Part shown: positions 27,867-43,228 of the stretch, in pieces
Layout of the letters: every line of letters starts with the position of its first letter
Numbering within the stretch: the stretch's first letter is position 1
Source of the DNA: Candidatus Kapaibacterium sp.
GTDB taxonomy: Bacteria > Bacteroidota > Ignavibacteria > Kapaibacteriales > UBA2268
Assembly (NCBI GenBank): GCA_937927515.1
Contig: CALBDO010000010.1
Span: 1-64,000 of the forward strand
DNA length: 64,000 bases
Direction of reading: 5' to 3'
Program-made: the position numbers and the translations under genes
The notes under the pieces: generated by a model
The model's input: the letters and a program-made list of their open reading frames with translations, nothing else
Databases searched by the model: none
Told to the model about the DNA's origin: nothing

Positions 27867-27974
27867 TTGAATAATCCAATGAAATATAATCCATATTATG
27901 TAAACTAAAGTATTAAACAATTTGCATATTTAACATATGATTGTTAAATTAGAATTTTGAACCAAGGGTTTAAT

Positions 27975-39292: not shown

Positions 39293-40276
39293 ATGATACA
39301 CCTACTTTACAATTTTTTATCAAATCCTTTCGTAACTCTCAGAAACCAACTTTACAAGCATGGGGTTATCAAACCAATCAAGTCTAATATCCCAATAATC
39401 AGCGTTGGGAACATTTCCTTCGGAGGGACTGGCAAAACCCCTTTTATTACCTACTTAGTCAAGAAATTTAATGAATTAGGTATCAAATCATTGTTATTGT
39501 CAAGAGGTTACAAAAGTTCCCAGAAAGATGTTGGCGTATTATCAAATGTAGTCTCATTTGATGATGTTTACAAATTTGGTGACGAGGCATTTCTCGTCCA
39601 TTTAAAAACCAAAATACCTATTATAGTTTCAAAAAAAAAGTATAAAGCAATTAGTTTAATAGAAAATTATTTTGATGTAGACGTTGTCATCTTAGATGAT
39701 GGATTTCAACATAGAAAACTTCAACGCAATTTGGACATTGTATTAATTGATTCAAAAACTTTTAAAACCTTTCGTCGTGAACCCTTAGCAAGTATAGAAA
39801 GAGCTAATTTAATTTTATTGGAATTTGGAATATCGCCTACATCCATACCTTCGGGTACATACCAAATCTTTTATTATCACAAGGTTATTGATAGTTTTGA
39901 AGATTCTTTAAATATTAAATTGGAATTAAATTCTCTTAGTGCTCAGAGGGTTGCGCTGTTAAGTGCAATTGGAAACAATGATAATTTCTACAAATCTCTT
40001 CAACCAATATTTCCTAATATTGTAAAACATTATAAATTTCGCGACCACCACTGGTACACCCCGCAAGACGTCGAAAAAATTTGTGAACAACTATCAAAAA
40101 AAAATATTCATTCAATAATTACAACTGAAAAGGACAGTATCAAGTTAAGAAGATTTACTCCAATATTTGAAAAATTTAATATCAAATTAATTAGCGCAGT
40201 TATGGAATTAAGAATTGAAGAAGAAAACGCTTTGTTGGACACTGTGTTGAACTACATAAATTTTAAAGTAAAATAA
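39293..40276 (+). CDS. lpxK: Tetraacyldisaccharide 4'-kinase LpxK
   Basis: LpxK phosphorylates the lipid A precursor at the inner membrane, so this organism makes lipid A. The 327-residue protein has the P-loop NISFGGTGKTPF near residue 42, the catalytic-region VVILDDGFQHRKLQRNLDIV near 125, and the usual C-terminal TTEKDSIKLRRF. The N-terminal hydrophobic stretch anchors it to the membrane. It starts 1 base after the Memo-AMMECR1 gene, and its 3' end overlaps the convergent AlbA gene by 14 bases. Confidence 0.93.
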   Translation: MIHLLYNFLSNPFVTLRNQLYKHGVIKPIKSNIPIISVGNISFGGTGKTPFITYLVKKFNELGIKSLLLSRGYKSSQKDVGVLSNVVSFDDVYKFGDEAFLVHLKTKIPIIVSKKKYKAISLIENYFDVDVVILDDGFQHRKLQRNLDIVLIDSKTFKTFRREPLASIERANLILLEFGISPTSIPSGTYQIFYYHKVIDSFEDSLNIKLELNSLSAQRVALLSAIGNNDNFYKSLQPIFPNIVKHYKFRDHHWYTPQDVEKICEQLSKKNIHSIITTEKDSIKLRRFTPIFEKFNIKLISAVMELRIEEENALLDTVLNYINFKVK

Positions 40277-40913
40277 AGTAATCATTAGTATTATCTGTAT
40301 AAATTTGTAATACACCAACCCGAACTAATTTAACCAAAACAGCAGAAGCTCTTCTTTCGGATATATTTACAAGTTTAGCAAACTCACGAACAGTAATCTT
40401 CTGATGCTTTTCCAAATAACTAAATAACCTTTTTTCTTGCTCTCCAATATAAATTTTTACCGGCTTGGAGTTTGCATTCAGTCCAGAGAGGATTCTTTTC
40501 ATTTCTTTACTTGCAATTACAGATTTCTCACCAAGCCGAATGTACGCAAACCTTTTTTTCCTGCCTTTTTCATCTATTGCCTCTATTGTGTGGGGTTTAT
40601 TATTACTTTCTTCTATCTCAACTACAATTATTTCTTTCTTATTATAATTTATAACATCGATATTCTTAGGAATTATTGGTGGAAAGATATTAAATTGACA
40701 AGCAATTTCAATAATATCAATTTCAGATTTTTCGGAATCGACACCAACAACTTTTCTGTCGTCGTCAATACCAACAATTAAAAAACCGCCTTTTGAATTT
40801 GCAAAGGCACAGAGCTCTTTTGCAATTTTTTCGGGCGAGGTTACCTTCCTTTTAAATTCTACTGTCGAAGACTCTCCTTCGGCAATCAACAGTTTTAGTT
40901 TTTCTGTGTCCAT
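40263..40913 (-). CDS. AlbA_2/Schlafen-type ATP-binding protein with winged-helix end
   Basis: A 216-residue protein with a Schlafen AlbA_2 domain (residues 10-135: SSTVEFKRKVTSPEKIAKEL, AFANSKGGFLIVGIDDD) and a C-terminal winged-helix (VREFAKLVNISERRASAVLVKLVRVGV). Family members are putative DNA-binding transcription regulators or defence-related proteins. The ATG at 40913 has no strong Shine-Dalgarno. The gap just upstream holds four tandem DnaA-box-like sequences, so DnaA might control this gene. Confidence 0.8.
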   Translation of the reverse strand: MDTEKLKLLIAEGESSTVEFKRKVTSPEKIAKELCAFANSKGGFLIVGIDDDRKVVGVDSEKSEIDIIEIACQFNIFPPIIPKNIDVINYNKKEIIVVEIEESNNKPHTIEAIDEKGRKKRFAYIRLGEKSVIASKEMKRILSGLNANSKPVKIYIGEQEKRLFSYLEKHQKITVREFAKLVNISERRASAVLVKLVRVGVLQIYTDNTNDYFILL

Positions 40914-40934
40914 TTATATTTTTTTACTATTGCC

Positions 40935-40976
40935 TGGGGAAAACTTGTTGATAAAATGTGGAAAAATTGTGGATAA
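40935..40976 (-). promoter_or_regulatory. Tandem DnaA-box array (possible oriC or DnaA-control site)
   Basis: Read on the minus strand, four 9-mers stand in the same orientation, each 11 bases from the next: TTATCCACA at 40968-40976 (perfect DnaA box), TTTTCCACA at 40957-40965, TTATCAACA at 40946-40954 (each one mismatch from the consensus) and TTTTCCCCA at 40935-40943 (two mismatches). An 11-base period puts them on one face of the helix. AT-rich DNA lies on both sides. They fill the short gap between uvrD and the AlbA-domain gene. Confidence 0.65.
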
Positions 40977-41002: not shown

Positions 41003-43228
41003 TCAAATTTTTCTAAGTTTTGCATATTGAAGCATAAGTCTTTTACGACCAACCGATTCAAAATTTACAAGTGCCTGAGCATAGCTTCCACTACCTTCAA
41101 GATGTTCTACCCTTCCTATTCCGAAAAAAGGATGAACGACTTTATCCCCTATTCTTAAAACATTATCGTCAGTTTGGTCATATTCGTTGATTGATTCTTT
41201 TGGATGAGAAAATGAATATCGTTTTGTCGCTGTTTTTTCAAGAGAAATCTTTGGAGCTCCGTTAATCTTTAGATAGGATTTATCAATTTCTTCCAAAAAT
41301 TTTGAAGGTGCTTGGTATGATTCTTCTCCAAATCTACGCCGTATTCTTGCATATGTCAAAAATACCTTTTGCATTGCTCTTGTCAAACCCACATAAAACA
41401 ATCTCCTCTCCTCTTCTTCATCATCTCGTTCTTTACTCCAATACCTAACTAAAGGGAATAGTCCTTGTTCCAATCCAACTATGAAGACAACGGGAAACTC
41501 GAGCCCTTTTGCAGAGTGCAATGTCATCAATTTTACTTGTTCAGTGGCAATATTTTTCTCATCAATATCAGAAATTAAACTTATCTGTTGCAAATAATCG
41601 TTTAAGTCTACATCTTCATTTTGAGTTAAGAAATTATACACATCACTCAAAAGTGTATTTATATTCCCTATTCTATCATAAGCATCATCAGTTCCTATTT
41701 CTTCATACATCGAAATCAAACCACTTTCTTTTATGTAGTTTGTAATGATTTCAGAGGGATATCCAGTTCTTTTTTCTAAATGTTCTTTTGTTTCCAAGAC
41801 CCATTTATGGAAATTTTTTAAGATTTGAGCTGCTCGTGATTGTAACATGGGTATGTCTTCAATAAACCCTAAAGCATTGAACAAAGATACACTGTTTTCC
41901 TTGGAGTAGTTTAGCATGATGTTTAATGTCTTTTTACCTACTCCTCTTGGAGGTTCATTAATTACTCTTATCAAGGATTCATTATCATCAGGATTTACAA
42001 GAATCCTTAAATACGCTAGAACATCTTTGACTTCTTTTCTTTTGTAAAATGAAACACCGCCGACAACCACATAGTTGATGTTCTCTCGTCGTAGTGCATT
42101 TTCAAATTCAAGTGACTGTGCATTGGTGCGATAAAAAACAGCAAAATCACCATAAGAAAATTTTCCAGTGCTTACAAGTTCCTTGATTTTGCTAACTACC
42201 AAATCTGCTTCATCTTTCTCAGTCTCGCATTGATAGAGTTCCAAGAGGTCACCATGGGGATTATCGGTCCAGAGTTTTTTTTCAATTTGTTTTTTATTGA
42301 AACGAATAACACTATCTGCAGCTGCGAGAATACATTTTGTGGAGCGATAGTTCTGCTCTAATAAAATTATACGAGCTTCGGGGAAATCTTTTTGAAAATC
42401 TAAAATATTTCTTATCTCTGCACCTCGCCATTTATAAATACTTTGCGCATCATCACCAACAACAGTTATATTCCTGTGCTTCGAAGCCAGTTGTTTCAAA
42501 ACATAGTATTGTACCCGATTTGTATCTTGGTACTCGTCAACCAAAATAAAATTAAACTTGTCTTGATATTTTTCCAAAATCTCTGGGAATGACTTAAACA
42601 AATCGTATGTATTTACCAACAGGTCGTCAAAGTCCATGGCATTGTTTTGGTGTAAATAATCTTGATATTCTTTATAAATATCGGCGACATGCCTTTCAAA
42701 TGAGGTTGAAATGCTTTTAGCAAATTCATCTGGTGTTAGAATGTTATTCTTTGCTAGAGAAATCATGTGGTGTATTGTATCTGCAGTCAACCTATTATTC
42801 GAAATAGGATAATTCTCCATGATTCTTTTAATTATTTGCAGGGAATCATCGGCATCATAAATTGAAAAACTCGAAGTATAACCTAACAATTTGGCTTCTA
42901 AACGCAAAATCCTTGCAAATAAAGAATGAAAAGTTCCAGCCCAAATCCTTTTAGCAGCCTCAGGATTAACAAGATTAGCTATTCTATCTTTCATTACTTG
43001 AGCTGCTTTGTTTGTAAAAGTCAACGCTAAAATGTTTTGTGGAGGAATTCCAATGTCAATCAAATATGCAATTTTGTGAGTAAGGACACGTGTTTTTCCG
43101 CTTCCAGCACCAGCAATAACTAAAACTGGGCCTTCGAAAGCGGTCACAGCTTCTTTTTGGACTGGATTTAAATTTTGAAGTATTGGATTTTTATCCCAGA
43201 AATCACTTTTTTTCTCTTTATCCATCAT
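41003..43228 (-). CDS. UvrD/PcrA/Rep-family DNA helicase
   Basis: A 741-residue superfamily 1A helicase. It shows Walker A VIAGAGSGKTRVL near residue 40, motif II VDEYQDTN near 232, motif III QSIYKWRGAE, motif IV LEQNYRSTK and motif VI FYVGLTRAMQKVFL. The C-terminal Tudor-like extension (HPFFGIGRVEHLEGSGSY) is typical of PcrA/UvrD, which interacts with RNA polymerase. It acts in nucleotide excision and replication repair. Two ATGs in tandem start it. The gap downstream holds the DnaA-box array. Confidence 0.93.
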   Translation of the reverse strand: MMDKEKKSDFWDKNPILQNLNPVQKEAVTAFEGPVLVIAGAGSGKTRVLTHKIAYLIDIGIPPQNILALTFTNKAAQVMKDRIANLVNPEAAKRIWAGTFHSLFARILRLEAKLLGYTSSFSIYDADDSLQIIKRIMENYPISNNRLTADTIHHMISLAKNNILTPDEFAKSISTSFERHVADIYKEYQDYLHQNNAMDFDDLLVNTYDLFKSFPEILEKYQDKFNFILVDEYQDTNRVQYYVLKQLASKHRNITVVGDDAQSIYKWRGAEIRNILDFQKDFPEARIILLEQNYRSTKCILAAADSVIRFNKKQIEKKLWTDNPHGDLLELYQCETEKDEADLVVSKIKELVSTGKFSYGDFAVFYRTNAQSLEFENALRRENINYVVVGGVSFYKRKEVKDVLAYLRILVNPDDNESLIRVINEPPRGVGKKTLNIMLNYSKENSVSLFNALGFIEDIPMLQSRAAQILKNFHKWVLETKEHLEKRTGYPSEIITNYIKESGLISMYEEIGTDDAYDRIGNINTLLSDVYNFLTQNEDVDLNDYLQQISLISDIDEKNIATEQVKLMTLHSAKGLEFPVVFIVGLEQGLFPLVRYWSKERDDEEEERRLFYVGLTRAMQKVFLTYARIRRRFGEESYQAPSKFLEEIDKSYLKINGAPKISLEKTATKRYSFSHPKESINEYDQTDDNVLRIGDKVVHPFFGIGRVEHLEGSGSYAQALVNFESVGRKRLMLQYAKLRKI

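Follow-up and report, generated by a model that had tools for sequence, protein, structure and literature searches.

A phased array of DnaA-box-like sequences upstream of an AlbA_2 gene in Candidatus Kapaibacterium, with candidate sites for oriC and dif

What is a row of four DnaA-box-like 9-mers doing in a short gap between uvrD and the gene of an AlbA-domain protein? The row lies in a 64,000-nt stretch of a Candidatus Kapaibacterium genome (the window), and the initial annotation offered three readings of it: a replication origin, a DnaA-titration site or a DnaA-controlled promoter for the AlbA gene. The gap and its neighbors contain the following features.

41003..43228, minus strand: UvrD/PcrA helicase gene, upstream of the array and in the same direction as the AlbA_2 gene
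40968..40976, minus strand: box 1, TTATCCACA
40957..40965, minus strand: box 2, TTTTCCACA, the commonest word of the genus clusters beside alaS (described below), except in the window's own cluster
40946..40954, minus strand: box 3, TTATCAACA, a variant present also in the alaS cluster of the relative G038
40935..40943, minus strand: box 4, TTTTCCCCA, with one mismatch to TTWTCMACA
40914..40934, minus strand: A-rich stretch of 21 bp that separates the array from the start codon of AlbA_2
40263..40913, minus strand: gene for a SLFN_AlbA_2 (PF04326) protein of 216 aa, the presumed target gene, downstream of the array

The four 9-mers were found where they had been annotated (window 40976-40935, minus strand), in the same orientation and with a period of 11 bp, leaving 2 bp between boxes. 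A perfect DnaA box is present as claimed, but the count of one was too low, since TTWTNCACA is fitted by two of the four boxes, and the placement of all boxes on one helix face holds only approximately, given a period of 11 bp and a helical repeat of about 10.5. The gap was taken as non-coding, with UvrD/PcrA encoded on one side and the SLFN_AlbA_2 protein on the other; a 66-codon plus-strand ORF, antisense to uvrD, touches it, and LpxK is encoded beyond the AlbA_2 gene in convergent orientation. Single TTWTNCACA words are not enriched in the window (11 observed, 11.6 expected), and the unusual feature is the tandem arrangement and not the single 9-mer. Besides the array, the window contains no run of at least three units at 11 bp (up to two mismatches per unit), and in 2000 rounds of dinucleotide shuffling, the 170 nt that precede the AlbA_2 gene never reached the observed run.

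Conservation of the gap in relatives had been proposed as a check, and the array passes it within the genus. Our genus set contained five genomes: G000 (the window's own genome), G036 (isolate Ch6), G037, G038 and G039. All five have the array at the same gap, with 4-5 units each and 1-6 mismatches in total, and in each of them it was reproduced by 0 of 2000 shuffles. The 11-bp register and the orientation are constant across the species, and individual boxes vary; the G037 array has only one perfect TTWTCCACA. The distance from the near end of the array to the AlbA_2 ATG varies between 17 and 35 bp, and the AT-rich stretch beside the boxes is present without its sequence being conserved. When the 23 units were pooled, it was the box core that held the information: positions 4 and 8 were invariant, positions 2, 7 and 9 carried 1.5-1.6 bits and the two spacer positions 0.8 and 0.4 bits, the box information being biased upward by the choice of units with at most two mismatches.

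A three-unit pattern with a total of at most two mismatches is present in each of the five genus genomes, at this gap only, and in 9 of the 54 genomes of the family (reversed-pattern control, 0/54); with one mismatch, 8 of the 123 order genomes have it, compared with 0 for the control. An AlbA_2 match is present in 48 of the 54 family genomes. In the 30 AlbA_2 loci that we examined, run length was 4-5 units in the five genus loci and, in the remaining 25, which come from other genera, one unit (22 loci), none (two loci) or two (one locus); the array is present in none of these 25. The array therefore belongs to the genus and not to the gene family, and it is not an ancestral control of the AlbA_2 gene.

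Three-box arrays at 11 bp were also found in G006, G009, G014, G019 and G061, beside genes other than AlbA_2. The adjoining genes, named by eye, are hemW-like, unnamed, transaldolase-like, transketolase-like and LD-carboxypeptidase-like. The arrays of G006, G009, G014 and G019 are the four in the family outside the genus; their short contigs contain no clear skew switch, and we therefore do not call them origins. The G006 array, which has opposed boxes, looks the most origin-like of the four.

Box density was recorded separately from phase. TTWTCCACA and its reversed control occur 472 and 310 times, respectively, over the five genus genomes, and 85 and 82 times in the window's own genome. Around the terminus of Ch6 (about 1.55-1.82 Mb), TTWTCCACA is about twice as dense as the genome average. 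The Ch6 array, with three boxes within one mismatch, is tied by another three-box group in the same 140 kb, and the densest of 60 sampled stretches, starting at 2,128,513, packs four boxes with at most one mismatch each into 60 bp. The array is set apart by phase and not by density, because equally dense loose groups occur elsewhere in Ch6 and a phased three-unit row occurs nowhere else.

Whether the array could be an origin was best judged in Candidatus Kapaibacterium sp. isolate Ch6 (CP058732.1), which has a closed chromosome of 2,660,650 bp. GC skew from sixty evenly spaced 15-kb stretches (34% of the genome) climbs to about 1.6 Mb and drops beyond; at finer sampling, a local maximum appears at 1.62-1.63 Mb, followed by a noisy shoulder that reaches about 1.68 Mb. 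The positions of the array and of dnaA are 1.6985 Mb and 1.138 Mb, respectively. In this sample, the skew analysis suggested by the initial annotation thus places the array on the side of the maximum and not of the minimum. On the coarse scale, the minimum spans a wide range (about 0.18-0.95 Mb), and the origin therefore cannot be placed by the minimum alone. Three TTWTCCACA words were found within 205 bp at 292 kb, in the gap between alaS and coaE.

G036, 292.1-292.4 kb, and G000, contig C22 just past 20397: two-armed DnaA-box cluster after alaS

In every one of the five genus genomes, the gap after alaS has an opposed, two-armed box cluster. Near the end of alaS are two boxes 8 bp apart; a third follows 75-78 bp on, and boxes in the opposite direction come next. 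In 320 bp, each cluster has 5-7 boxes that differ from TTWTCMACA by at most one mismatch, a count that was reached by 1, 0, 0, 2 and 0 of 500 shuffles in Ch6, G038, G037, G000 and G039, respectively. In the right arm, G038 and G037 show head-to-tail boxes at spacings of 11 and 22 bp; neighboring same-direction boxes of this arm are 65 bp apart in Ch6, 43 bp in G000, and 33 and then 21 bp in G039. The genes beyond the gap vary among the species. The coaE side was also considered as a marker of oriC and was rejected: among 30 loci, coaE has moved and has no cluster beside it outside Ch6, and it is the alaS side that keeps the cluster.

Skew switches from minus to plus at this cluster in four of the five genomes. 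With 10-kb flanks, the change is from -0.090 to +0.153 in G000, from -0.079 to +0.074 in G038 and from -0.029 to +0.081 in G037; with 8-kb flanks, it is from -0.074 to +0.038 in Ch6. In G039 the values are +0.018 and +0.085, without a turn, on a contig with just 5 kb on one side, too short to judge. When the alaS cluster is taken as the origin of Ch6 and the dif-like site described below as its terminus, skew is positive in 22 of 31 right-side stretches and negative in 27 of 29 left-side stretches. Nine of the 11 tRNA genes in the sampled third (counted by eye) run with the fork from the alaS cluster and two against it, as does the tmRNA gene. The genes at 2.53 Mb that we take, from their motifs, to encode RpoC, S12 and EF-Tu are co-directional with the fork, and long-ORF bases follow it weakly (57%; bootstrap 51-64%). 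A 16S rRNA gene was sought as an orientation marker and gave no match in any of the five genomes, in a search that was positive in just 9 of 14 controls. The dnaA loci of G000 and Ch6 (3.5 kb each) gave no box cluster, only isolated one-mismatch boxes.

These features make the two-armed cluster on the alaS side the genus's probable oriC; in Ch6, it and the array are about 1.4 Mb apart. The proposal that the array itself is oriC is contradicted by this conserved cluster at a skew switch elsewhere. The initial annotation had held that an origin would be refuted by a skew minimum elsewhere with a better box cluster near dnaA and by lack of conservation; a better cluster does lie at a skew switch elsewhere, but away from dnaA, and conservation of the array within the genus was found.

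The other end of replication appears to be close to the array. The window was scanned with what we take to be the E. coli type of dif pattern, and a site at 27879 was among the matches, ranking fifth in a tie with two others; the same type of scan gave only noise in the Ch6 stretches. The sequence at 27879 recurs with three mismatches in G038, G039 and Ch6, and a pattern was derived from it.

27879-27906, plus strand: dif-like 28-mer, ATGAAATATAATCCATATTATGTAAACT (ATGWAATATAATCYATATTATGTAAAC type), single-copy in 34 of the 54 genomes of the family

The 34 genomes include all five of the genus, the derived pattern never occurs more than once, and its control gave 0 matches; at the stringency used, it is absent from the other 20. 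The dif-like site is 13.0-13.8 kb from the array in the genus. The local cumulative skew maximum (4-kb bins over the fetched stretch) falls no more than 5 kb from it in G000, G038 and G039, and about 60 kb from it in Ch6. We therefore regard the region of the array as a putative terminus and the site as the candidate dif in much of the family, where XerC/XerD would act.

Gene order around dif (about -25 to +25 kb) is common to G000, G038 and Ch6, is largely shared by G039 and is shared by G037 over a short contig. The block with kept gene order across the genus measures about 50 kb (window about 4-53 kb); the gene beyond the oriC gap is not kept in this way. The proteins of the block in the genus species are mostly 40-90% identical to those of the window. 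Array and dif are neighbors by inheritance of this conserved block, and their proximity is therefore not independent evidence for a role at the terminus. In 20 dif-bearing genomes outside the genus, no phased row was found near dif on the fetched side (3.8-20 kb each), the largest groups having 2-3 boxes. An array near dif as a family-wide feature was rejected, given that 19 of these 20 genomes have no three-unit array anywhere and that of G014 is on another contig.

We consider that the array probably binds DnaA, whatever its purpose. All its boxes point at the AlbA_2 gene, and the kinds of words that it uses (TTTTCCACA, TTATCCACA, TT[AT]TCAACA) also occur in the alaS-side clusters. Each of the five genus genomes encodes one DnaA, with what we take to be a DHTTVLHA-type recognition motif. 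The array has the composition of a double DnaA box (at least two boxes 2-3 bp apart in one orientation), and it lies close upstream of a gene and is conserved in relatives, in this case within the genus only (5/5). The reading that we prefer, to which we give about an even chance, is that of a non-origin DnaA-binding array regulating the AlbA_2 gene 21 bp downstream. ATP-DnaA would load head-to-tail over the boxes, with boxes 1 and 2 strong and boxes 3 and 4 weak; occupancy would track how much active DnaA is present, and the oligomer on the boxes would activate or repress the AlbA_2 gene. Points against this reading are the varying distance to the start codon, the lone perfect TTWTCCACA in G037, the lack of an 11-bp register between neighboring same-direction boxes in the alaS right arm of Ch6, G000 and G039, and the absence of the array from AlbA_2 loci of other genera.

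A DnaA-controlled promoter, as initially suggested, fits the anatomy best, but a scan limited to promoters of the sigma-70-like type found none in the gap on the AlbA_2 strand, and one weak match inside the AlbA_2 gene itself. A separate AlbA_2 promoter downstream of the array, if there is one, would have to place its core or start site within the 21-bp A-rich stretch. AlbA_2 may alternatively be transcribed by read-through from uvrD. The C-terminal end of the AlbA_2 protein is probably a winged helix, as suggested by weak matches to PCI (23.4 bits; cut-off, 22) and TrmB (20.3 bits, under the cut-off of 25.6).

The boxes might instead be operators for another protein, for example in autoregulation by AlbA_2, with their likeness to DnaA boxes coincidental. 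Helix-phased direct repeats are typical operators, and the array directly precedes the gene of a putative DNA-binding protein. However, the box words and variants match those of the genus alaS-side clusters, AlbA_2 orthologues in other genera have no array, and similar three-box arrays elsewhere in the order adjoin unrelated genes, all of which makes this explanation unlikely. MraZ-type operators, which have a different word and a 10-bp period, were considered and dropped on general knowledge alone. We judge it equally doubtful that the array is a titration or nucleotide-switch site with no particular target gene, in a role like that of datA or DARS, whose doubling would be timed by late replication near the terminus. 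The DnaA-box anatomy would be the same, and in Ch6, 18 of 95 TTWTCCACA words lie within 133 kb of dif, compared with 9.5 expected and 10 around oriC (one-test uniform P 0.0096, for one genome and one window chosen after the list had been seen, with the array counted once and composition uncorrected). As a result from one genome with a post hoc window, this excess is a hint for titration only. Against it, the array has just 4-5 boxes, its position near dif is inherited with the conserved block, and E. coli boxes concentrate near oriC, described as the place useful for titration (PMC12371093, section 6).

Two further explanations are very unlikely, to a similar degree. One is that the array derives from one oriC arm, as a relic or a copy, and has lost its function. 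Its resemblance to the alaS-side right arm of G038 and G037 would fit this, but its boxes stay in phase in five species while the rest of the gap sequence changes. The other is a DnaA sensor on the terminus side, in which fork passage near dif would duplicate the array and strip it of DnaA, tying AlbA_2 expression or DnaA titration to the end of replication; this would be a genus-particular counterpart of origin-side controls. A chromosomal origin at the array, the first of the readings initially offered, is the least probable of all and has next to no chance of being correct. The clustered DnaA boxes beside an AT-rich stretch would suit an origin, but skew does not turn there (10-kb flanks of -0.048 and -0.067 in G000, +0.036 and +0.008 in G039, and +0.052 and +0.033 in G038), and the dif-like site is 13-14 kb away. 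The skew-maximum side of the Ch6 chromosome and the minus-to-plus switch at the conserved cluster after alaS (4/5 genomes) argue against it as well, as do the putative rpoC, S12 and EF-Tu genes and the 9 of 11 tRNA genes that follow forks from that cluster.

An in-phase array of DnaA boxes thus does not by itself make an origin. In this genus, an origin search on box clusters alone could choose uvrD, when the candidate supported by skew is the one after alaS. The oriC and dif assignments are testable anchors for the study of replication and chromosome segregation in Kapaibacteria. No title among the matches listed in our literature search concerned DnaA targets, oriC or dif in this group; should DnaA bind the array, its regulon would gain the AlbA_2 gene, and this in a group with no DnaA-target study among those matches.

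We take the array to be a further case of the known off-origin DnaA-box arrays, the oriC and dif assignments being by-products. ChIP-seq has shown that the preferred targets of E. coli DnaA in vivo are paired boxes separated by 2-3 bp, most of them located before genes, and binding at purH is strongly reduced when the gap is 4 bp (PMC11317965). Like the double boxes at nrdA, purH and polA, the boxes of the array are in tandem, 2 bp apart and just upstream of a gene. In contrast to these, there are four to five in a row, AlbA_2 is not among the targets reported in the portion of PMC11317965 available to us, and the array is known here from sequence. Off-origin clusters in B. subtilis allow DnaA to activate sda and, it appears, to repress other genes; one of them shows a strong preference for ATP (PMC4447404). 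The clusters of that organism (sda, ywlC, ywcI/vpr, gcp-ydiF) resemble the array in having several intergenic boxes away from oriC, some of them controlling the next gene, but the strong off-origin regions have 4-11 sites, whereas the array is short and strictly phased at 11 bp (PMC4447404).

As a non-coding DnaA-box cluster away from oriC, the array is also comparable to datA, DARS1 and DARS2 of E. coli. E. coli boxes are enriched near oriC (PMC12371093), unlike the array, which is on the terminus side, and the box density near dif in Ch6 is likewise the opposite of that pattern. A further parallel is the DnaA-oligomerization region of oriC in E. coli and Thermotoga maritima, where boxes are unidirectional and 2-bp interspaces are tolerated or preferred; T. 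maritima oriC boxes placed in one direction with a 2-bp interspace supported unwinding like that of the wild type (PMC10316083). The array differs from such a region in having no opposite arm and in lying at the wrong place on the chromosome.
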